NCBI GenBank assembly: GCA_024640205.1
Contig: JAHEFL010000001.1
Location: 1-19,018, forward strand
Length of the DNA: 19,018 nt
Origin: Flavobacteriales bacterium
GTDB lineage: Bacteria; Bacteroidota; Bacteroidia; Flavobacteriales_F; PHOS-HE28
Reading direction: 5' to 3'
Both the position numbers and the translations under genes were made by a program. Under the pieces are notes generated by a model, which was given only the letters and a program-made list of their open reading frames with translations, was not told the DNA's origin and searched no databases. The first letter of the stretch is position 1, and each line of letters opens with the position of its first letter. Positions 644 to 17,898 of the stretch are shown piece after piece.

Positions 644-700
644 CCTCCCGCCTTGGGCTGCTCCGTTGACCTCCGAACAATACGGCGCATCGTGTTGCCG

Positions 701-708
701 TAGCTTTG
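701..708 (+). promoter_or_regulatory. Candidate Bacteroidota -7 element (TAGCTTTG) for the DUF4175 operon
   Basis: TAGCTTTG matches the Bacteroidota -7 consensus TAnnTTTG and lies 44 bp before the chosen ATG at 753. The following TTCC is shared with the similar element at 7864 upstream of mnmG. No TTG lies at the usual -33 distance (the nearest is about 32 bp upstream, too far), so only half of the promoter is supported. If it is real, the upstream TTG start at 666 would fall before the transcript start. Confidence 0.4.
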
Positions 709-752
709 TTCCACCCGTATCCCGGCATGGCCGTTGCGGGTATGAAAGCACG

Positions 753-3700
753 ATGCGCTCCGAGCCGGACCACTTGATCTCCAAGCTGGATGAATTCATC
801 CGGAAATACTACAAGGACCAACTGGTCCGGGGGGCTCTGTACAGCCTTGGGCTGTTGGTCGCGGTGTTCCTCGTGGTAACGATGCTGGAATACATCGGTC
901 GATTCGGTACGGGGACCCGGACCGTTCTGTTCTGGTCATCGATAAGCGCGATGTTGTTCATCCTGGCTCGCTTCGTTGCCCTACCCCTCTTCAAGTTGTT
1001 CCGGCTCGGTGAGGTGATCTCCCACGCGGAGGCGGCACGCATCATCGGAGTGCATTTCTCCGAGGTCAAGGATAAACTGCTCAATACCCTCCAATTGCGC
1101 GAAATGGCGTTCCTGGATACGCGGCAACGCGACCTGATCGAAGCAGCGATCGAGCAGCGTAGCCGTGAGTTGAAGGCCGTCCCGTTCGCCAATGCCATAG
1201 ACCTTAGGAACAACCGGCGGTATCTCCGATATGCGTTGCCGCCGCTGGCTGTTTTGATGGTTCTTCTTTTCGCCGCTCCAAGCCTTATAACCGGGCCCAC
1301 ACAACGGCTTATCCGGCATGGTAGAGAATTCATTCCCGAAGCACCGTTCCGTTTCATTCTCTTGAACGATGACCTGATCGTTCCAGAGAACCAGGATATT
1401 GAGATCGGGGTGGAATTGCAGGGCGAGGTGATACCCCAACAGGTCGCCTTGGAGGTGGGTGGCCAGCGCATCCCCATGGTGAAGAAGGATGCCCGGCGGT
1501 TCGTACATCGGTTCCGCAATGTCCAGAACGATCTGCGGTTCCGCTTCAGTGCCGAGGGCTTCTGGTCCGTCGATCATGAACTCATCGCGGTGCCCCACCC
1601 CTCCCTCCTCGATTTCGAGCTGCTCCTTGATTTTCCAGCATACCTGAACATGCCTTCCGAGACCATCCGGAATTCCGGGGATGTGGTGGTGCCGATGGGT
1701 ACCACGATATCGTGGCAGGTGAACGCCAAAAGCAGCGACCACCTGGATCTGGTGCTTGGTGATTCCACCGTCATCCTTACACCTTCCGCACGATCTTCCG
1801 AGGGGCAGGTTTTCCGTTCGTCAAGAAGGCTCCTGCGCAGCACCACGTTCCGCATGGTGCCGAGGCTCGAAAATGCGACCAGGCCGACTGGCGCAACGGA
1901 CGAGGGACTGGAGTATCGGCTGGAGGTGATCCCGGATCTCTACCCCACCATACAGGTGGAGACACGGACGGACAGCACCGCTCTGAAGCGGCTCTTTTAC
2001 AGAGGCGAGATCACGGACGACCATGGCTTCAAGCGCCTTGTATTCCATTACCGTTTCGCGGCCGGTGGCGATAGTGTGCCCGCAGAGCTTCGAAGTGGTA
2101 GCGCCGAGATCCGCCTGGATGGCGGTCGGCGTCAGCAGGAATTTTTTCATAGCTGGGATCTGTATGGTTTCTCCACCGCTCCTGGAGATAGGATCGAGCA
2201 TTGGTTCGAGGTATGGGATAATGATGGTGTGAACGGAAGCAAGAGCACGCGAAGCAGTACCCAGATATTCGCCGCACCCACTCGCAGGGAGCTTTCAGAT
2301 CAACAGGAGAAGGACAATGAGGCCATCAAGAGCGGACTGAAGGAGAGCATTCGAGAGGCGCAGGACCTGCAACAGGAGCTGGAAAAACTCAGAAGGGAGC
2401 TGCTTGAGAAAAAGGAGTTGAACTGGCAGGATCGACAGAAGTTGGAGAACGTGATGCAGCGCCAGCAGGAGCTTCAGCAGCGCATTGAGCAAAGCACCGA
2501 ACAGCTTCGGGAGAGCCAGCAGCAACAACAAGAGTTCCGACAGGTGGACGAGCGTTTGCTTGAGAAGCAGATGCAGGTCCAGGAGTTGTTCGAAAATGTG
2601 TTGAGCGAGGAAATGAAGGAGCTTTATCGCAAGGTCCAGGAGTTGATGGAAAAGCTTGATAAGGACGAGCTCCAGGAACAGATGAAGGACATGAAGATGG
2701 GTCAGGAGGATATCGAGAAGGAGTTGGATCGTGCCCTTGAGCTTTTCAAGCAGTTGGAGGTGGAGCAAAAGGCCCAGGATATCATAGATCAATTGGAGGA
2801 GCTGGCGGAAAAGCAGAAGGACCTTGCCGAAGAAACCGATACGGGGGAACGCGATCCCGAGGAGCTGAAGAAAGAGCAGGACGCGTTGAACAAGGAGTTC
2901 GAGGAGCTGCGCAAGGAATTGGACGAACTGGAGGAGAAGAACAAGGAATTGGAGCAACCACTTGAATTCCCGGACACGGAACAGCAGGAAGAGGAAATAG
3001 AACAGGAACAGAAGGAGAGCAGCGAGGAGCTGGAGAACAAGAAGAACAACAAGGCGGGGCAGAAACAGAAAAGCGCCGCCGAGAAAATGGAGCAAATGGC
3101 GTTCGCGATGCAGAGTGCCATGCAGAGCAATGCACAGGAGCAACAAGAGGAGGATATGGACGACCTGCGGCAACTGCTGGAGAATATCGTCGAGCTGAGC
3201 TTCGACCAGGAGGCGGTCATGGATCAGGGCATATCAACCTCCATCCGTGATCCCCGTTTCATTGAGCAGGGGCGGCAACAACGGAAGCTCCGGGATGATG
3301 CCAAGGTCATTGAGGATTCCTTGTTCGCACTGAGCAAACGCGTGCCACAATTGCAGGGCATTGTGAACCGTGAGATGAACGCGGTGAATACGAACATGGA
3401 CGACGCGACGCAGTTGCTTGGTGAGTCACGAGCGAACGAACGCTTCAAGCCGATGGCGGCGGACAAGCAACAACAGGCCATGACCAGCCTGAACAACCTT
3501 GCGCTATTGCTGGATGAGGCCCTGCAACAGATGATGCAGCAAATGATGCAGCAAGGAAGCGGCAGTTGTAACAATCCGAAACCGGGTAAACCCGGACAGG
3601 GACAGGGACAGGGGGTGGCCAAAATGAAGGCCCAGCAGCAGGCGCTTCAAAAGCAACTGGAAGAAATGCGCAAGGCCATGGAGAAGGCCGGTAAGAAGCC

Positions 3701-4178
3701 AGGGGAAAAACCCGGGGAGAAGAACGAAGGTGGTTCGGGAATGTCCGGCATGAGCAAACAGTTGGCACAGCTGGCTGCTCAGCAAGCGGCGATCCGAAAG
3801 GAAATGCAAAAGCTCGGACAGGAATTGAACAAGGATGGCAGTGGTTCCGGGAACGGCCTGAACAAACTTGCGGAGGAAATGGAACAGCAGGAACGCGATA
3901 TCGTGAACCGCAACATCACGCCAGAGACCATGCGCCGCCAGCAGGACATCATGACCAGGCTCCTCGAACATGAGAAAGCGGAACGTGAACGCGAATTGGA
4001 CCAGAAGCGGACCAGCAACGAGGCCAGGGACTTACCGCCACCCGATCCCGCAAAGTATTTCGACTACCAACGACGAAAAGAGAGGGAAGCGGAACTACTC
4101 CGAACAGTACCCCCTGGGTTGAAACCATACTACCGCGATCGCGTGAACACCTATTTCGGTACATTTGACCGACCCTGA
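753..4178 (+). CDS. DUF4175 family membrane protein with giant coiled-coil region
   Basis: This 1141-residue protein (start ATG at 753; a TTG at 666 in the same frame adds a Cys-rich stretch that does not look like protein) fits the DUF4175 family of Bacteroidota. Two hydrophobic segments near residues 25-48 and 57-80, and a third near 161-178, anchor it in the inner membrane. A beta-rich, Ig-like extracytoplasmic region follows to about residue 530. Next comes a very long region rich in Glu, Gln and Lys (from about nt 2300 to 3230, EELRKELDELEEK style) that should form extended coiled coil. The C-terminal third has Gln/Met tracts (QQMMQQMMQQ), a Gly-Pro-Lys-Gln linker (PGKPGQGQGQG) and more helix. 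The family's role is not established and no catalytic motif is visible. Only 8 bp separate it from the HATPase gene, so it probably heads an operon with that gene and ybeY. Confidence 0.85.
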   Translation: MRSEPDHLISKLDEFIRKYYKDQLVRGALYSLGLLVAVFLVVTMLEYIGRFGTGTRTVLFWSSISAMLFILARFVALPLFKLFRLGEVISHAEAARIIGVHFSEVKDKLLNTLQLREMAFLDTRQRDLIEAAIEQRSRELKAVPFANAIDLRNNRRYLRYALPPLAVLMVLLFAAPSLITGPTQRLIRHGREFIPEAPFRFILLNDDLIVPENQDIEIGVELQGEVIPQQVALEVGGQRIPMVKKDARRFVHRFRNVQNDLRFRFSAEGFWSVDHELIAVPHPSLLDFELLLDFPAYLNMPSETIRNSGDVVVPMGTTISWQVNAKSSDHLDLVLGDSTVILTPSARSSEGQVFRSSRRLLRSTTFRMVPRLENATRPTGATDEGLEYRLEVIPDLYPTIQVETRTDSTALKRLFYRGEITDDHGFKRLVFHYRFAAGGDSVPAELRSGSAEIRLDGGRRQQEFFHSWDLYGFSTAPGDRIEHWFEVWDNDGVNGSKSTRSSTQIFAAPTRRELSDQQEKDNEAIKSGLKESIREAQDLQQELEKLRRELLEKKELNWQDRQKLENVMQRQQELQQRIEQSTEQLRESQQQQQEFRQVDERLLEKQMQVQELFENVLSEEMKELYRKVQELMEKLDKDELQEQMKDMKMGQEDIEKELDRALELFKQLEVEQKAQDIIDQLEELAEKQKDLAEETDTGERDPEELKKEQDALNKEFEELRKELDELEEKNKELEQPLEFPDTEQQEEEIEQEQKESSEELENKKNNKAGQKQKSAAEKMEQMAFAMQSAMQSNAQEQQEEDMDDLRQLLENIVELSFDQEAVMDQGISTSIRDPRFIEQGRQQRKLRDDAKVIEDSLFALSKRVPQLQGIVNREMNAVNTNMDDATQLLGESRANERFKPMAADKQQQAMTSLNNLALLLDEALQQMMQQMMQQGSGSCNNPKPGKPGQGQGQGVAKMKAQQQALQKQLEEMRKAMEKAGKKPGEKPGEKNEGGSGMSGMSKQLAQLAAQQAAIRKEMQKLGQELNKDGSGSGNGLNKLAEEMEQQERDIVNRNITPETMRRQQDIMTRLLEHEKAERERELDQKRTSNEARDLPPPDPAKYFDYQRRKEREAELLRTVPPGLKPYYRDRVNTYFGTFDRP

Positions 4179-7783: not shown

Positions 7784-7863
7784 TGGGCCGTAACGCACTA
7801 AGATCCCCGGTCGGCGTAAACGTAGGGGCCAGTCTTGGGGGTCGCGAACACCACGCTGAAAGC

Positions 7864-7871
7864 TACCTTTG
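7864..7871 (+). promoter_or_regulatory. Candidate -7 element (TACCTTTG) for mnmG
   Basis: TACCTTTG fits the Bacteroidota -7 consensus TAnnTTTG and is followed by TTCC, as at 701. It lies 84 bp before the mnmG ATG. The nearest upstream TTG (7835-7837) is 26 bp away, somewhat beyond the usual -33 spacing. If used, it gives mnmG an mRNA leader of roughly 75-80 nt. Confidence 0.45.
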
Positions 7872-7955
7872 TTCCTGTTCCGAAATCGCTCGACCCAGAT
7901 ATAACACAATGATTATCAGGGTATTGCACGCATCATTTCATCATTGATACGATCC

Positions 7956-9836
7956 ATGATCGAGCGCTCCGAATACGATGTGATTGTTGTGGGTGGCGGC
8001 CATGCTGGTTGTGAAGCTGCAGCATCGGCCGCGAATCTTGGTTCACGCGTGCTCCTGGTCACCATGAACATGGGGGTGATCGGACAAATGAGCTGCAATC
8101 CCGCAATGGGCGGGGTTGGTAAGGGACAGATCGTACGTGAGATCGACGCAATGGGGGGTTATTCCGGAATTGTAAGCGATCGGAGCGCGGTGCAATTCCG
8201 CATGTTGAACCGAAGCAAGGGCCCTGCCATGTGGAGCCCCCGGACACAGAACGATCGCAATATGTTCGCCTCGGAATGGCGCAGGTCTTTGGAGAGCATT
8301 CCTGGTCTTCATTTCAGGCAAGAGAACGTTGTAGGGCTTGTGGTTGAAAACGGATCAGTCCTTGGTGTACGCACGAGTATGGGGAGCACGATCTCATGTC
8401 GTTCGGTGGTACTTACCAGCGGTACATTCTTGAACGGCACTATGCATATCGGTGAGCGCCAGGTCGGGGGGGGCAGGGCCGGTGAAAAGGCAAGCCATGG
8501 CATTACCGAACAACTTGTGGAGCTTGGTTTCGACGCGGGCCGGATGAAAACAGGCACACCACCACGGGTGGACGGTCGAAGCATTGATCACGACCGTATG
8601 GAGGAACAGAAAGGCGACGAGGATCCCGGCAAATTCAGCTTTCTGAGCAGCATCGAACCATTGAGGCATCAGCTTTCCTGCCACATAACGTATACTAACG
8701 AGGAGGTGCACGATATTCTCCGCACCGGATTTGACCGTAGTCCGATGTTCAACGGACGCATCCAAGGGGTGGGTCCGCGGTATTGTCCGAGCATTGAGGA
8801 TAAGATCGACCGTTTCTCGGACAAGGACCGCCATCAGATCTTTGTGGAGCCCGAAGGCTGGAATACAGTGGAAACGTACATCAATGGATTCAGCACCAGT
8901 CTTCCGGAAGACGTGCAGATCGCCGCTTTGCGCAAGATCCCGGGGTTTGAGCGCGCGCTGATGTTCCGACCGGGTTATGCCGTGGAGTATGACTACTTCC
9001 CTCCTACCCAACTGCGCCACACGCTCGAGACAAAGATCGTGAAGGGGCTCTATTTCGCGGGTCAGATCAATGGGACGACAGGGTACGAAGAGGCAGCGGG
9101 GCAGGGCTTGATGGCGGGTATCAACGCGCATCTTGGAGTTCATGGCAAAGAACCGTTCACCCTTGGTCGCGACGAGGCGTATATCGGTGTGCTGATCGAC
9201 GACCTGATCACGAAAGGCACCGAAGAACCGTATCGCATGTTCACAAGTCGCGCCGAATACCGCATACTGCTCAGGCAGGACAACGCGGACCTTCGATTAA
9301 CGGAAAAGAGCAACCGGATAGGGTTGGCTGATCAGGCACGCGTAGATCGTGTAAGGAAAAAGGCGGGATCCATTTCGGAGCTTAGTGGCTTGCTGCGGTC
9401 CGTAAGCACCGAACCCGAGATTGCCAATTCGGTGATCGTTCCACGTGGAACATCGCCACTGAAACAGAAGACCAAACTCTATGACCTCCTTCTCCGCCCA
9501 CAGCTCGACCATGCGGATATTGAAGGCTTGTCCGAAGAACTCCGAATTCATGTGGAAGGACTTGGGGACCTGCAAAAGGAGGTCATCGAACAGGTTGAGA
9601 TCAACGTGAAGTATTCCGGATACTTGGAAAAGGAGAAAGAGCTCGCCGACAAACTTGGTCGCTTGGACGGCGTTGCGATCGAAACCGACATGGACTACTC
9701 AAAGCTCGGAAGCCTTTCAACAGAAGCACGGATCAAACTTTCAACTGTGCGACCTAATACACTGGGACAAGCATCCCGCATCAGCGGGATATCACCCGCC
9801 GACATGGCTGTACTGGTCGTTTACTTGGGCAGATGA
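7956..9836 (+). CDS. mnmG: tRNA uridine-5-carboxymethylaminomethyl(34) synthesis enzyme MnmG (GidA)
   Basis: This 626-residue flavoprotein matches the usual MnmG length (about 620-630). With MnmE it adds the carboxymethylaminomethyl group to wobble uridine 34 of tRNAs reading NNA/NNG codons. Visible landmarks: the FAD Rossmann motif [12 protein letters not shown] near residues 11-22; [23 protein letters not shown] with the catalytic-region Cys; [16 protein letters not shown]; the [25 protein letters not shown] block; [10 protein letters not shown]; and [12 protein letters not shown] with the second functional Cys. Further on are [32 protein letters not shown] and [19 protein letters not shown]. 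The ATG at 7956 places FAD binding at the expected distance; a TTG at 7944 would add four residues. A parS-like palindrome is embedded at codons 495-499. Its stop overlaps the next gene's first possible ATG (ATGA). Confidence 0.97.
9438..9451. other. parS: parS-like site 1 (ParB-binding centromere motif) inside mnmG
   Basis: GTTCCACGTGGAAC is a perfect 14-bp palindrome. It equals the chromosomal parS core seen in Pseudomonas and differs from the Bacillus-type consensus (TGTTnCACGTGAAACA) only by a symmetric pair of bases. The 16-mer here is CGTTCCACGTGGAACA. It is in frame in mnmG and encodes Val-Pro-Arg-Gly-Thr at residues 495-499. Its 20-bp context (9434-9453) is repeated exactly at 9873-9892. 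ParB would load and spread from here; parA/parB are not in the window. Confidence 0.82.
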
Positions 9837-10789
9837 CCCCCTGGTCCGAACCTATTTCTCACCCCATGGATCGATCGTTCCACGTGGAACATAAACAGGA
9901 AACTCTCGCTAATTGCCCCTTGTGTGGCTCCCCTGAAACACGGGTCTCGCTTACACTTCACGACCACTCAATTAGCCATGAGGATTTCTCCACCCATGAT
10001 TGCGATGGATGTGGATTCCGTTTTACCAATCCGCGCCCTACACCATCCGCCATTGGAGATTATTACAAAGACAGCAACTACATATCCCATAATTCGTCCG
10101 GCAAGGGATTTCTGGAGCATTTATACCGCATTGCGCGAAAAAGGGCCCTTAGGAGAAAAGCAGCCTTGATCCGGGAATACGTAGGCGACGGCAGAGCACT
10201 GGACATAGGCTGCGGAACGGGCGAATTCCTTGCTCAATTGATGAGCCGCGGATTCCAGGTAACTGGGATCGAACCAGACCTCGGAGCACGGGAGCGAGCC
10301 ATTTCCAATTTCAGCATACCCGTGTTCCCCGCCTTGGAACAGATCCCGGCCCAGGAGCAATTCCGGGTCATAACCCTTTGGCATGCCCTGGAGCATGTCC
10401 CAGATCCCAAAGGCACCTTCAAAACCCTCTATGCATTGCTTGAACCTGGAGGCCTTTTAGTGATCGCTGTTCCTGATCGCGAAAGCTGGGATCGCTCATA
10501 CTATAACAGCTACTGGGCCGCATGGGATGTTCCTCGCCATTTATCCCATTTCAGGCGCATGGATGTACATCGGCTAATTCATGAACACGGGTTCGAGATC
10601 TTGGATACACGCCGCATGCCATTGGACGCCTTCTACATCGCATTGTTGAGCGAGGGCTACAGGGGCTCACATGCCATCTGGCGCTATCCCAAGGCAATGG
10701 CTATCGGACTTTGGTCCAACCTTTCTAGTTTCCTATCAAATAGACCTACTTCCAGTACTTTGTTTATAGCCAAAAAGCCCAACCGCTGA
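9833..10789 (+). CDS. Class I SAM-dependent methyltransferase with N-terminal zinc ribbon
   Basis: The 318-residue frame starts at an ATG overlapping the mnmG stop (ATGA). An ATG at 9866, 11 codons in (giving MDRSFHVEH), is an equally good start. A four-cysteine zinc ribbon comes first (CPLCG at 28-32 and CDGCG at 57-61, followed by FRFTNPRPT), with a [10 protein letters not shown] block. The Rossmann core carries SAM motif [13 protein letters not shown] at 122-133, the acidic GIEPD at 145-149, and [13 protein letters not shown], typical of the Methyltransf_23 group. The C-terminus has [19 protein letters not shown] and a helical region. Such enzymes follow mnmG in many Bacteroidota as far as I recall, but the substrate is not known. 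The second parS-like site lies in its first codons. A weak T-tract hairpin overlaps its 3' end. Confidence 0.9.
9877..9890. other. parS: parS-like site 2 (ParB-binding centromere motif) at the start of the methyltransferase gene
   Basis: This is a second exact copy of GTTCCACGTGGAAC, 439 bp after the first, in the same 20-bp flank (GATC before, AT after). Here it is read in a different phase relative to codons and encodes Phe-His-Val-Glu-His. Two identical sites at this spacing are far beyond chance for a 14-mer and fit a clustered parS locus. It overlaps the region where the methyltransferase start lies, so bound ParB could touch that gene's translation start region. Confidence 0.82.
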
Positions 10790-11023: not shown

Positions 11024-12580
11024 ATGAATACTGTGATCGCATCCCCGCCGCCTGCCATTGTCAATGTACTCCGGTCACTTGGTGTCGGAGAGGTGAATAT
11101 AGGCGTAAGCACGGGTCACGACCCGTTCATGGGGAAAGGCGAAGAGATCATCTCCTCGTCGCCTGTTGATGGCGCTGCGATCGCTTCGGTGCGTTCGGCG
11201 GATCGAAGCGAGTATGATGCGGTGATCGAGAGCTCGCAGCAAGCCTTCCTGGAATGGCGCACCTGGCCCGCCCCAAAACGGGGTGAGGTAGTGCGACAAA
11301 TAGGAGAGGAGCTCCGTGCGCACAAGGCTGATCTGGGAAAACTGGTGAGCTACGAAATGGGAAAGAGCTATCAGGAGGGATTGGGAGAGGTGCAAGAAAT
11401 GATCGATATCTGTGATTTCGCTGTTGGGCTTTCGCGCCAGTTACATGGGCTCACCATGCATAGTGAACGTCCTGAACACCGCATGTATGAACAGTGGCAC
11501 CCGTTCGGGCCGGTCGGCATCATTACCGCATTCAATTTCCCGGTCGCCGTATGGGGCTGGAATACCGCCCTGGCCTGGGTTTGCGGCAACACGTGTGTGT
11601 GGAAGCCGAGTGAGAAAACACCGCTCTGCAGCATTGCCTGTCAGCGGATCGTGAATACCGTCTTCAAGCGTAACGGGGTGCCGGAGGGCGTTGGCTGCAT
11701 CGTGAACGGAGGGCGTGAGGTAGGAGAGTGGCTATCCAAAGATCACCGTATTCCATTGGTCAGTGCAACAGGAAGCACCCGCATGGGGCGGGCAGTTGCC
11801 ACTGCTGTTGGCCAGCGATTGGGCCGCTCACTGCTTGAACTGGGTGGCAATAATGCCATCATCATCAGCGATAAAGCCGACCTGGATATGTCGTTGATCG
11901 GTTGTGTCTTCGGCGCCGTGGGAACAGCTGGCCAACGCTGCACGAGCACCCGTCGCCTGATCATCCACGATAAGGTGTACGAGGCGTTCAAGGCCAAGCT
12001 CGTTAAGGCCTATTCCCAGCTACGTGTCGGTGATCCGCTGGATGAAAAGAACCATGTGGGACCACTGATCGATAAGGATGCGGTCAACAACTATCTGCGG
12101 GCGCTAGACTTGGCACGCGAGCAAGGTGCCTCGATCGTGGTCGAAGGCGGTGTGCTGGAAGGTGAAGGGAGTGGCTGTTATGTGAAACCAGCGATCATCG
12201 AAGCCCGACCGGACATGAGCATCGTTCAGGAGGAAACATTCGCTCCGATCCTTTACTTGTTACGATACAGCGGCGATCTGGAGGAGGCTATTGCCATTCA
12301 GAACGGCGTGGTTCAGGGCCTCAGCAGTGCCATTATGACCCTGGACCTTCGGGAGGCGGAGCGCTTCCTTAGCGCATCGGGATCGGACTGTGGGATCGCC
12401 AATGTGAATATCGGTACGAGCGGAGCTGAGATCGGGGGTGCATTCGGGGGTGAAAAGGAAACCGGAGGAGGACGGGAAAGCGGGAGTGATGCGTGGAAAG
12501 CATATATGCGTAGGCAAACCAACACGATCAACTACGGCACCTCGCTTCCTTTGGCCCAAGGCATCAAGTTCGATCTATAG
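11024..12580 (+). CDS. Aldehyde dehydrogenase, ALDH7 type (alpha-aminoadipic semialdehyde dehydrogenase-like)
   Basis: At 518 residues this NAD(P)-dependent aldehyde dehydrogenase has all catalytic elements: the Asn of FNFPVAVWGWN (Asn171), KPSEKTPL (Lys194), the Rossmann block VSATGSTRMGR, catalytic Glu272 in LELGGNN, and catalytic Cys306 in GTAGQRCTSTRRLIIH. EETFAPILY follows further on. The 'AVGTAGQRCTSTRRL' wording, the VNIGTSGAEIGGAFGGEKETGGGRESGSDAWK block and the tail YMRRQTNTINYGTSLPLAQGIKF are characteristic of ALDH7A1/antiquitin relatives. These oxidise alpha-aminoadipic semialdehyde (in equilibrium with piperideine-6-carboxylate) in lysine catabolism. Other lysine-degradation genes are not in the window, so the physiological substrate is inferred from family only. 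It is cytoplasmic and probably has its own promoter. Confidence 0.93.
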   Translation: MNTVIASPPPAIVNVLRSLGVGEVNIGVSTGHDPFMGKGEEIISSSPVDGAAIASVRSADRSEYDAVIESSQQAFLEWRTWPAPKRGEVVRQIGEELRAHKADLGKLVSYEMGKSYQEGLGEVQEMIDICDFAVGLSRQLHGLTMHSERPEHRMYEQWHPFGPVGIITAFNFPVAVWGWNTALAWVCGNTCVWKPSEKTPLCSIACQRIVNTVFKRNGVPEGVGCIVNGGREVGEWLSKDHRIPLVSATGSTRMGRAVATAVGQRLGRSLLELGGNNAIIISDKADLDMSLIGCVFGAVGTAGQRCTSTRRLIIHDKVYEAFKAKLVKAYSQLRVGDPLDEKNHVGPLIDKDAVNNYLRALDLAREQGASIVVEGGVLEGEGSGCYVKPAIIEARPDMSIVQEETFAPILYLLRYSGDLEEAIAIQNGVVQGLSSAIMTLDLREAERFLSASGSDCGIANVNIGTSGAEIGGAFGGEKETGGGRESGSDAWKAYMRRQTNTINYGTSLPLAQGIKFDL

Positions 12581-15501: not shown

Positions 15502-15936
15502 CTAGATGTGGTTTTCGATCCCTTCAACCCGCCGGAGGTGCCTTCCTCCTTCGAATTCCGCTCCAAGGAACGCATCCAGAATACTGACCCCTTCCTCATT
15601 ACTGATGAACCGCGCTGGAAGGGCCAGTACGTTCGCATTATTATGTTGCCTGGCCAATGATGCCACCTCGGGCAACCATCCTAATGCTGATCGCACCCCT
15701 TCATGCTTGTTGGCCGTGATGTTCACCCCGTTGCCACTGCCACAAATGACCACGCCAATATCACCCTCCTTCTTGGCTACCGCATCGGCAACTGCATGCG
15801 CGAACGTCGGATAATCGACACTATCAAGGGATGTCGTTCCCTTATCCGCCACGGTATGACCCGAACCATTCAAATGGTCCTTCAGGTATTCCTTCAATTC
15901 GAACCCAGCGTGATCGCTGCCTATGATGATGCGCAT
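15502..15936 (-). CDS. rpiB: Ribose 5-phosphate isomerase B
   Basis: The 144-residue protein is the normal size for RpiB, which interconverts ribose 5-phosphate and ribulose 5-phosphate in the pentose phosphate pathway. The N-terminus IIGSDHAGFELKEYL carries the substrate-binding Asp8-His9. CGSGNGVNITANKHEGVRSAL contains the catalytic Cys65 and the phosphate/ring-opening loop, and ARQHNNANVLALPARF has the expected His98-Asn pair. The close homologues LacA/B and RpiB share this fold, but the Cys plus SGNG loop favours RpiB. The start at 15936 is the natural one, and a -7-like box lies 18 bp upstream. The gene leads a two-gene minus-strand unit with the M28 peptidase. Confidence 0.95.
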   Translation of the reverse strand: MRIIIGSDHAGFELKEYLKDHLNGSGHTVADKGTTSLDSVDYPTFAHAVADAVAKKEGDIGVVICGSGNGVNITANKHEGVRSALGWLPEVASLARQHNNANVLALPARFISNEEGVSILDAFLGAEFEGGRHLRRVEGIENHI

Positions 15937-15953
15937 TAGGCCTGATTAAGTGT

Positions 15954-15961
15954 CAAAGATA
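15954..15961 (-). promoter_or_regulatory. Candidate -7 element (TATCTTTG) for rpiB
   Basis: Read on the minus strand this is TATCTTTG, a full match to TAnnTTTG, 17 bp ahead of the rpiB ATG. That gives a very short leader of about 10 nt. The nearest minus-strand TTG (complement at 15990-15992) is 28 bp away, so a standard -33 box is not clear. Confidence 0.45.
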
Positions 15962-16122
15962 TCCCGTTGCCGCTACGGCATCGATCCATCAACAGGATGA
16001 TCGTGGGAACGACCTTTTTCGTGTTCACAATTAGGGAAAACGTTCCACTCATCAACGATCGGTCTTTCCTCATGATCGATCTGCTTCGGAAAACAAGTTT
16101 TGTTCTGATCATTCGCTTCACG

Positions 16123-16138
16123 TGGATCGAACGATCCA
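16123..16138. repeat. Inverted repeat TGGATCG-AA-CGATCCA
   Basis: Seven-base arms are separated by two bases, in the middle of the GATC-rich spacer. The dyad is the most symmetric element of that spacer and a reasonable operator candidate. Confidence 0.5.
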
Positions 16139-16281
16139 ACACCCATTCCAACCACCCCGTTCTTTCAACAACCCTTCCTTCCATATATCATGAACGATCG
16201 TTGATCATTCACCCGGGATGAGGGCGGGTCATGACTTTGTTGCGTTGTTCATAACGGTCCGATCCTTGATGACCCGTGCGC

Positions 16282-16289
16282 TACTTTTG
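16282..16289 (+). promoter_or_regulatory. Candidate -7 element (TACTTTTG) for the MORN-repeat gene
   Basis: TACTTTTG fits TAnnTTTG and lies about 91 bp before the ATG at 16381. The only TTG upstream (16266-16268) is 13 bp away, closer than usual. If it is used, the leader would cover the AT-rich stretch before the start codon. Confidence 0.35.
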
Positions 16290-16380
16290 ATAAGCCATAT
16301 CACCAAGTCAGGTCGCATTCGATCACCAACATTGTGAACAGCTCTTACTATATCATCATCTTTTATTAGAAGAATTATAA

Positions 16381-17898
16381 ATGCAAATAAGGTTGTGGAT
16401 AGTTCTATTTGGGTTGATGCCATATTGTGCGGCACAAGGACAGGTAGAAGGTCCGGATACCACTCGCTATTACCACCCCAACGGACAGGTAAGCAGTGAA
16501 GGTGTACTCGTGGATGGAAAACCGGAAGGCTATTGGCGCACTTATTATGATTCCGGTGTCTTGCGTTCGGAAGGGAATAGAAGGAACCATCTGCTGGATA
16601 GCCTATGGAAATTCTATTCACCCGAAGGAAGCCTTCAGAGTGAAATTGAATACCAGGAGGATGTGCGGGAGGGGGAGTCCCGGAAATACAATTCCGTTGG
16701 TGTACTTGTTTCCAGGGAATACTTTCTGAATGACCAGCGGGAGGGAATGGCGGAATACTATCATGAGTCGGGTCCCATCCACATGGAGGTTCCTTTTAAG
16801 AATGGGAAAGAGGAGGGGACCGGTTATGAATATGCGGAGGATGGCAGGGTGATCTCCATTCTGTATTACGGTGCCGGAATGCTTCGTCGGAGGGAGGAGA
16901 TAAATCGTGTGGACCGAATGGGATTGAAGCAAGGTCCATGGAAGGAATTCCACCCCAATGGAAGGATCAATTGGGAGGGGAACTATGTCGATGACCGCTT
17001 ACAGGGTATCTACAAGGAATTCGATGCGCAGGGCAATCTGAAGGAGATGGAGAAGTACGATGCCGGTGAAGTGAACATCGCTGCGCAGGAAACGATGTTG
17101 ATGGAGATCAAACGGACATTTCATGCCGGTGGCAAGATCGCGAGCATCGGTAGCTACACAAAGAGCGGAAAACGGGAGGGACTATTCAAGGAATTCGCAA
17201 CGTCCGGTGAAGTGACCGGTGCAAAACTGTATTCGAACGACCGGCTCATCAGCGAGGGAATGGTGAACAACCTGGGGGTGATGGAAGGCCCATGGACCGA
17301 GTATTATGCCACTGGAGAAATGCGGGCAGAAGGGGAATACAAAGAAGGAAAGCGCAACGGCGACTGGGTATTCTTCCACCGAAGCGGCGAGACCGAACAA
17401 AAAGGGAAATACCTTGATGGTAAGCCACATGGGCCATGGAAATGGTACCACCCGAACGGACGCCTGCACAGGGAGGAGATCTATCGAAAAGGGAAGGAGG
17501 ACGGCCCTTCGGTGGAATATGATGAGGATGGGCAGGTGATCACCCAAGGGGAATACATTGACGGCCGCCGGGAAGGGCCGTGGTTATATGAGTTGGGCGA
17601 CCATAAAGAGGAAGGCGTGTACAAGGATGGGTACAAGGATGGTCAATGGGTGTTCACCTACGATAATGGCAAAAAGAACTTCGTCGGGAGTTACGTGAAC
17701 GGTGAGCCGCACGGGAAACACAGGTGGTATTGGCCCAACGGCTTGTTGATGTTGGAGGGGCGCTATGTCATGGGTTTGGAGCAGGGTGACTTCACCCACT
17801 TTGACCAGAATGGTGTCATTGTTTTCACGGTCCGGTTTCGGGATGGTGCAGAGATCCGCTTCGATGGGGTGCGGGTACCCCCGCCATATCAGCCATGA
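16381..17898 (+). CDS. Exported MORN_2/YwqK-repeat protein
   Basis: The 505-residue protein has a signal peptide (MQIRLWIVLFGLMPYCAAQGQ) and then consists almost wholly of repeats of about 23-25 residues. Each unit reads roughly YYxxNGxxxxEGxYxxGKxxGxW, for example YYHPNGQVSSEGVLVDGKPEGYW, WYHPNGRLHREEIYRKGKEDG and WYWPNGLLMLEGRYVMGLEQG. I count about 18 units between residues 25 and 490, forming a long beta-hairpin array. Database names for this family often say 'toxin-antitoxin system YwqK family antitoxin', but nothing here supports a toxin-antitoxin role: no toxin gene adjoins it and the protein is exported. A structural or binding role in the envelope is more likely. The PAS-sensor gene follows after 12 bp, suggesting one transcript. 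Confidence 0.9.
   Translation: MQIRLWIVLFGLMPYCAAQGQVEGPDTTRYYHPNGQVSSEGVLVDGKPEGYWRTYYDSGVLRSEGNRRNHLLDSLWKFYSPEGSLQSEIEYQEDVREGESRKYNSVGVLVSREYFLNDQREGMAEYYHESGPIHMEVPFKNGKEEGTGYEYAEDGRVISILYYGAGMLRRREEINRVDRMGLKQGPWKEFHPNGRINWEGNYVDDRLQGIYKEFDAQGNLKEMEKYDAGEVNIAAQETMLMEIKRTFHAGGKIASIGSYTKSGKREGLFKEFATSGEVTGAKLYSNDRLISEGMVNNLGVMEGPWTEYYATGEMRAEGEYKEGKRNGDWVFFHRSGETEQKGKYLDGKPHGPWKWYHPNGRLHREEIYRKGKEDGPSVEYDEDGQVITQGEYIDGRREGPWLYELGDHKEEGVYKDGYKDGQWVFTYDNGKKNFVGSYVNGEPHGKHRWYWPNGLLMLEGRYVMGLEQGDFTHFDQNGVIVFTVRFRDGAEIRFDGVRVPPPYQP

Follow-up and report, generated by a model that had tools for sequence, protein, structure and literature searches.

In Pseudomonas aeruginosa and Myxococcus xanthus, the partition genes parA and parB are origin-proximal, and we take the 14-bp string GTTCCACGTGGAAC to be the parS of both species. 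In general, parAB lie close to parS, and parS is the loading site for Smc-ScpAB, although neither is a defining trait of the site. In other phyla, an origin cluster is known that has the gene order gidA(mnmG)-gidB-parA-parB. The string GTTCCACGTGGAAC occurs in nine papers, including ones on the ParABS systems of P. aeruginosa and M. xanthus, the available portions of which report ten putative parS sites, four of them close to oriC, for the former and 22 parS sites near the origin for the latter.

The window, that is, the whole stretch of 19,018 nucleotides analyzed here, contains two copies of this palindrome. Judging from the sequence, these are very probably the chromosomal parS of a ParABS system, which would nucleate ParB and whose anchor in the origin region would be mnmG (Table 1). 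Exact matching confirmed the observation of an earlier note on this DNA that two identical 14-mers, whose starts are 439 bp apart, each lie within a 20-bp repeat (GATCGTTCCACGTGGAACAT), and the identity between the two copies stops at the ends of this repeat on both sides. Both sites match GTTNCACGTGNAAC, a palindrome of 14-16 bp as expected of parS. The same note had seen only two copies in the 19 kb; this proved correct for exact matches, and the two are also the only exact copies in the whole source assembly (2.6 Mb, 556 contigs, 82.8% complete), which holds two one-mismatch copies on other contigs. The number of exact copies of a 14-mer palindrome expected in 19 kb is approximately 7e-5 (19018/4^14). 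When up to three mismatches were allowed, the window yielded, beyond the exact pair, only two three-mismatch matches (at 866 and 16115). Since this total of four (0.81 expected) was reached in 4 of 200 shuffles, it is only the exactness of the pair that carries the signal. At up to two mismatches, 27 matches to GTTCCACGTGGAAC were counted in the whole assembly versus 19 for a reversed control pattern. The 20-mer GATCGTTCCACGTGGAACAT is held by 32 public stretches, 19 of which are assigned by title to Flavobacteriales, Bacteroidetes/Bacteroidota, Salinimicrobium, or Chryseobacterium, and 13 of which come from other phyla; on this basis, the class is presumably Bacteroidia.

Table 1. Positions of the putative parS sites, the surrounding genes, the candidate origin, and the partition genes
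Feature	Position	Strand	Remarks
Usual place of upstream parS	7856..7955	+	no match with up to three mismatches here; exact in 23 of 30 genus loci
mnmG (gidA), tRNA uridine-5-carboxymethylaminomethyl(34) synthesis enzyme, 626 aa	7956..9836	+	TIGR00136, 813 bits (cut-off 524.85)
20-bp stretch GATCGTTCCACGTGGAACAT, copy 1	9434..9453	.	identical to 9873-9892
Putative parS site 2 (genus pattern), GTTCCACGTGGAAC	9438..9451	.	in frame within mnmG, codons GTT CCA CGT GGA AC
Methyltransferase-like ORF	9833..10789	+	site 3 near the N-terminus; no NCBIfam model above cut-off
20-bp stretch GATCGTTCCACGTGGAACAT, copy 2	9873..9892	.	identical to 9434-9453
Putative parS site 3 (genus pattern), GTTCCACGTGGAAC	9877..9890	.	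initial codons of the methyltransferase ORF, read as S-F-H-V-E
Candidate oriC, AT-rich intergenic region of ~445 bp	15937..16380	.	between rpiB (15502-15936, -) and the ORF at 16381
parA-parB pair	G000:C482, L016 227-1908	-	contig other than that of the sites

The ATG at 7956 was preferred as the start of mnmG. Site 2 is located at +1482 of this gene, where it encodes the peptide V-P-R-G-T, and site 3 begins 40 nucleotides past the stop codon. The upstream parS found 5' of mnmG in most relatives is missing in the window's genome in a search with up to three mismatches. As to the other genes of the window, 11024-12580 encodes an L-piperidine-6-carboxylate dehydrogenase (NF050084, 825 bits; cut-off 730), the gene of which lies 3' of mnmG in all 23 genus regions compared. 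The ORF of 1170 aa at 666-4178 has a long Gln/Glu-rich, coiled-coil-like stretch, and that at 16381-17898 consists of short Gly, Trp, Tyr, and Asn-Gly repeats, which by eye are presumably MORN-like.

Because a scan for the exact 20-mer samples only parS-bearing genomes, the class-wide test was based on a sample picked by mnmG. This sample comprised 60 genomes, 59 of which had mnmG (G046, with no mnmG match, was left out); exclusion of three genus members gave 56 genomes outside the genus. The loci compared consisted of mnmG plus up to 3 kb on each side, contig ends shortening some of them. Of the 56 genomes, 50 had GTTNCACGTGNAAC no farther than 3 kb from mnmG, with a total of 105 sites, and 15 control palindromic cores set in the same frame gave no site at the 56 loci. 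Three of the six genomes without GTTNCACGTGNAAC (G043, G084, and G092) had one-mismatch variants near mnmG. Neither the pattern nor such a variant was detected near mnmG in G048, G071, and G080, the contigs of G048 and G080 being short.

A whole-genome search for GTTNCACGTGNAAC was performed on 14 genomes, namely the window's own and 13 relatives with approximately 1 to 20 contigs. The pattern was present in 13 of them, and 28 of the 29 sites lay within 1.2 kb of mnmG, the sole site away from it being that of G004, 15 kb off. The reversed control pattern matched once each in G108 and G047. Evenly scattered copies, which the earlier note had named as evidence against parS, are therefore absent, both from these genomes and from the source assembly with its two exact copies. 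Few copies clustered near the origin are typical of parS, and such an arrangement was found here for clustering in the 14 genomes and, by GC skew, for the origin in two relatives. Two class genomes speak against the parS reading. G092 encodes a ParB and lacks GTTNCACGTGNAAC, and its one-mismatch variants at mnmG, GTTTCATGTGAAAC and GTTTCACATGAAAC, occupy the two usual positions (L299); they perhaps represent a shifted parS centre. In G076 (L228), four contigs carried a total of 11 exact 14-mers, six of which shared a contig and were mostly ~99 bp apart, and despite these 11 sites no ParB match was obtained in the assembly.

Within the genus, the exact site was present in 33 of 35 genomes, the window's genome included, and the assemblies of the other two (G001 and G034) gave no mnmG match. 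Of 45 genus genomes, 41 gave an mnmG match; the best-scoring 30 of the 41 loci were aligned. In these 30 loci, the in-gene site was intact in every case, the downstream site was exact in 29 and had one mismatch in the remaining one, and an upstream parS, at −14 to −48 from mnmG, was exact in 23. The last of these positions, just 5' of mnmG, is where an operator would be placed, and the palindrome could accordingly be the operator of a transcription regulator for mnmG and the methyltransferase gene, with no centromere involved. Such a role is improbable, however, because the most constant copy, intact in all 30 of the best 30 of 41 loci, is located deep in coding sequence, and because the sites of the class are found upstream of, inside, or downstream of mnmG. 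Furthermore, 12 of the 13 pattern-bearing genomes have sites at mnmG only and one has the single extra site 15 kb off; sites confined almost solely to mnmG do not make up a regulon. The 20-mer is also held by 13 loci from other phyla, which were picked by this sequence and are not a random sample. Nine of them include mnmG and seven include both parA and parB, and the presence of the partition genes in these seven also argues against an operator.

The statement of the earlier note that parA and parB lie outside the window was borne out, and the lack of a ParB homologue, which it would have counted against a partition site, did not apply: the window's genome has one ParB-family gene on contig C482, directly preceded by a gene for a ParA-like ATPase. 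The ParB scored 175 bits with TIGR00180 (cut-off 58.45), and no ParA model matched the ATPase above its cut-off. ParB was found in 59 of 60 class genomes and in 40 of 45 genus genomes, including all 30 with a completeness of 90% or more and a contamination of no more than 5%. The window genome's own ParB contains GERRYRA, and we take GERRxRA to be the CTP motif of ParB. On the other hand, the best NCBIfam score of this protein, exceeding that of the ParB domain model, was obtained with nucleoid_noc (222 bits), and its two best solved-structure matches are Noc proteins, so that the sites might serve a Noc-like nucleoid occlusion protein and not a partition ParB. We regard this as very improbable. 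The score is below the curated nucleoid_noc cut-off of 315. According to the available part of PMC7383237, four positions switch ParB to Noc specificity, and the contact residues are R173/G201 in the parS type and Q173/R201 in the Noc type (numbering of that paper). The specificity positions read R-Y-R-G in the own ParB, and R-Y-K-G (27) or R-Y-R-G (3) in the best-scoring 30 of the 40 genus genomes with a match; R173 and G201 are thus shared by all of these proteins, none of which has the Q and R of Noc. In addition, the first base of the site is G, and its centre is the CACGTG of parS. Whereas Noc sites occur throughout the chromosome, those described here are few and clustered.

The conservation of the parS-like site within mnmG was resolved to single codons in the 30 aligned genes. 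The codons GTT CCA CGT GGA at the in-gene site were invariant in all 30. Among the columns with an invariant residue (10 Val, 19 Pro, 26 Arg, and 44 Gly, each count including the site's own column), only those of the site used a single codon, and the site was the best conserved 14-nt window of mnmG in this alignment. Relative to the downstream ORF, the last exact site of 23 genus regions was read in the S/P/L-F-H-V-E frame in 16 cases; three others gave R-S-T-W-N and a single one V-P-R-G-T. The regions of G065, G067, and G005 were uninformative, the last exact site of G005 being located in mnmG. Many relatives have no start codon upstream in that frame, and the downstream site may therefore be untranslated there. 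As read from these alignments, at the downstream site it is the DNA that is kept and not the peptide, and selection on the sites visibly acts at the DNA level. An origin of the repeats by chance or by protein-coding constraint is a negligible prospect, for although the V-P-R-G-T peptide is invariant in the 30 genus MnmG proteins (best 30 of 41), the synonymous positions are frozen too, site 3 keeps the same DNA in other frames, and most of the sites outside the genus precede mnmG or are located at its 3' end or past it.

GC skew was measured in two relatives, G010 (one contig of 3,918,270 bp) and G025 (largest contig 3,862,203 bp), using 20 coarse samples each and dense reads of 400 and 380 kb, respectively. 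In the coarse samples, the skew of G010 was still negative at 2.94 Mb and had become positive at 3.13 Mb. The dense read placed its cumulative minimum at 3,004,000, 6-7 kb from the sites at 2,997,306 and 2,997,715. The minimum of G025 was mapped to 2,616,000, ~90 kb from the sites at 2,525,184 and 2,525,585, where a low stretch starting near 2.51 Mb comes to its end. The 20 coarse samples of each genome agree with these dense reads. The coarse maximum of G010 was at ~1.6-1.9 Mb and that of G025 at ~0.58-0.77 Mb, and in G010 the minimum and maximum split the chromosome unequally, into ~1.2 and 2.7 Mb. Because the skew is weak (20-kb values of up to ~0.055), the positions of the minima and maxima are rough. 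The location near oriC proposed in the earlier note thus agrees with the skew minima of these two relatives; the weakness of the skew, the ~90 kb in G025, and the unequal split in G010 are points against it. A large distance between oriC and dnaA is common in Bacteroidetes (PMC4755523), and in gut bacteria the origin is not systematically tied to dnaA (PMC10197239), as stated in the available parts of these papers.

An intergenic region ~6.0 kb downstream of site 3 is a candidate, and only a candidate, for oriC on the basis of its composition and context (Table 1). All 23 genus regions showed the same arrangement, in which mnmG is followed after 4.4-6.0 kb by rpiB on the minus strand, an intergenic region of 415-533 bp, and an ORF on the plus strand. 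The AT-richest 300 bp of the 16-20 kb region started in the intergenic region adjacent to rpiB in 18 of the 23, and in G010 the candidate overlapped the AT-richest 300 bp of the 400 kb as well as a local GC-skew minimum. The DnaA box TTATCCACA occurred four times in the 10.3 kb of candidate intergenic regions versus once in 435 kb outside, these regions containing it in only three of the 23 genomes. The relaxed box TTNTNCACA was found 14 times in the intergenic regions, in 11 of the 23 genomes, versus 33 times outside; the mean of 100 shuffles of the former was 1.8 and the maximum was 6. Against the candidate, the combined DnaA-box count was highest there in only 10 of the 23 regions, and the skew minimum of G025 lies elsewhere. 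The enrichment is seen only across the 23 genus regions; the window itself has no exact TTATCCACA and, in a one-mismatch scan, no DnaA-box cluster. Clustering of GATC (474 versus 151 in shuffles, both strands) was also considered as a mark of oriC and was not used, since equally dense clusters occur elsewhere in the sampled genomes.

The parB gene was located 1.66 Mb from the sites in G010 (42.5% of the chromosome) and 1.78 Mb in G025 (~46%), the maximum possible being 50%. With parB and dnaA at 1.33 and 1.53 Mb in G010 and at 0.74 and 0.44 Mb in G025, parAB and dnaA are both in the chromosome half opposite the sites, on the side of the GC-skew maximum. Among 58 class genomes with both genes, parB was on the mnmG contig in three, at distances of 301, 630, and 733 kb. 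Of the 52 other class genomes outside the genus, 36 had mnmG 10 kb or more from the nearer contig end, and for 15 this distance was 50 kb or more, values that are only lower bounds on the separation of mnmG and parB. No ParA or ParB match was obtained within 3 kb of mnmG at any of the 56 class loci outside the genus, nor was there one in 20 genus loci. In the window's genome, mnmG and parB are on separate contigs, and the assembly is too fragmented to give a distance. The proposal of the earlier note, a chromosomal parS near oriC, is accordingly supported by sequence, and two points have to be added to it: parAB are far away wherever their position could be judged, and the third, upstream site is missing. 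The simplest reading of the gene orders is that parS and mnmG stayed together and parAB moved off, the direction of this change being the conjectural part.

Smc was not detected above the cut-off in any of five genus genomes, and a full-length Smc was present in both class outgroups examined. Similarly, ScpB was found in none of 18 genus genomes and in three of four outgroups. Weak coiled-coil-like matches were set aside. The genus therefore seems to lack Smc-ScpAB, in which case one usual downstream partner of ParB-parS would be absent. Neither of the two usual companions of parS, adjacency to parAB and loading of Smc-ScpAB, was thus observed, which counts against the parS reading. The available part of PMC10197239 describes two gut Bacteroidetes as lacking known condensins.

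Following the general ParABS scheme as given in the available part of PMC7333895, ParB encoded on another contig would bind each palindrome as a dimer, and the bound ParB would load with CTP and spread across the mnmG neighbourhood. ParA, encoded beside ParB, would move the complex, and freshly replicated origin regions would separate first. The parS near oriC would then be the handle by which the chromosome is segregated, with parA and parB acting in trans from afar. We infer the binding, CTP loading, spreading, and segregation, and likewise that the window's genome behaves in the same way. A more far-reaching interpretation, which we put forward tentatively and with appreciable doubt, is that the lineage has a ParABS centromere that operates in the absence of Smc-ScpAB, its partition genes being located across the chromosome from it. 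Ancestrally, mnmG, parAB, and parS would have formed one cluster, which parAB left while parS remained at mnmG; parS would now be under codon-level selection solely for ParA-driven segregation or some other role of ParB. If parAB did move to the opposite side, parS and parAB may as a consequence be replicated at nearly opposite times.

The parS element itself is of a textbook kind; what is noteworthy is its class-wide anchoring at mnmG, the copy with frozen codons, and how far away parAB are. Among the open-licence papers searched, most of them by title and the beginning of the abstract, we saw no description of parS tied to mnmG/gidA in Bacteroidota. In draft genomes of the class, mnmG with parS sites could mark the origin region, where dnaA does not, a link of mnmG-parS to the origin that was checked in just two relatives. 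Selection at the DNA level within coding sequence is cleanly exemplified by the in-gene site. The genus also provides a natural experiment on what ParB-parS does without Smc-ScpAB and with parAB in the half opposite the origin.

Compared with known systems, the 14-mer is the same string as in the accessible literature on parS of P. aeruginosa and M. xanthus; here, however, there are two copies, one of them frozen inside mnmG, and parA and parB are elsewhere. In Bacteroides caecimuris and other gut bacteria, which belong to other genera, a parS cluster together with a GC-skew switch marks the origin as well, whereas a tie to mnmG and selection on the site are not treated in the available part of that report (PMC10197239). 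The mnmG-parAB origin cluster of other phyla resembles the present locus in having parS beside mnmG, and in five of the 13 other-phyla loci a span of 8 kb contains mnmG, parA, parB, and parS, in contrast to the loci of the class compared here, which hold no parA or parB. Finally, Noc and its binding site (NBS) represent a related protein family, from which the system described here differs in that both the contact residues and the site are of the ParB/parS type.
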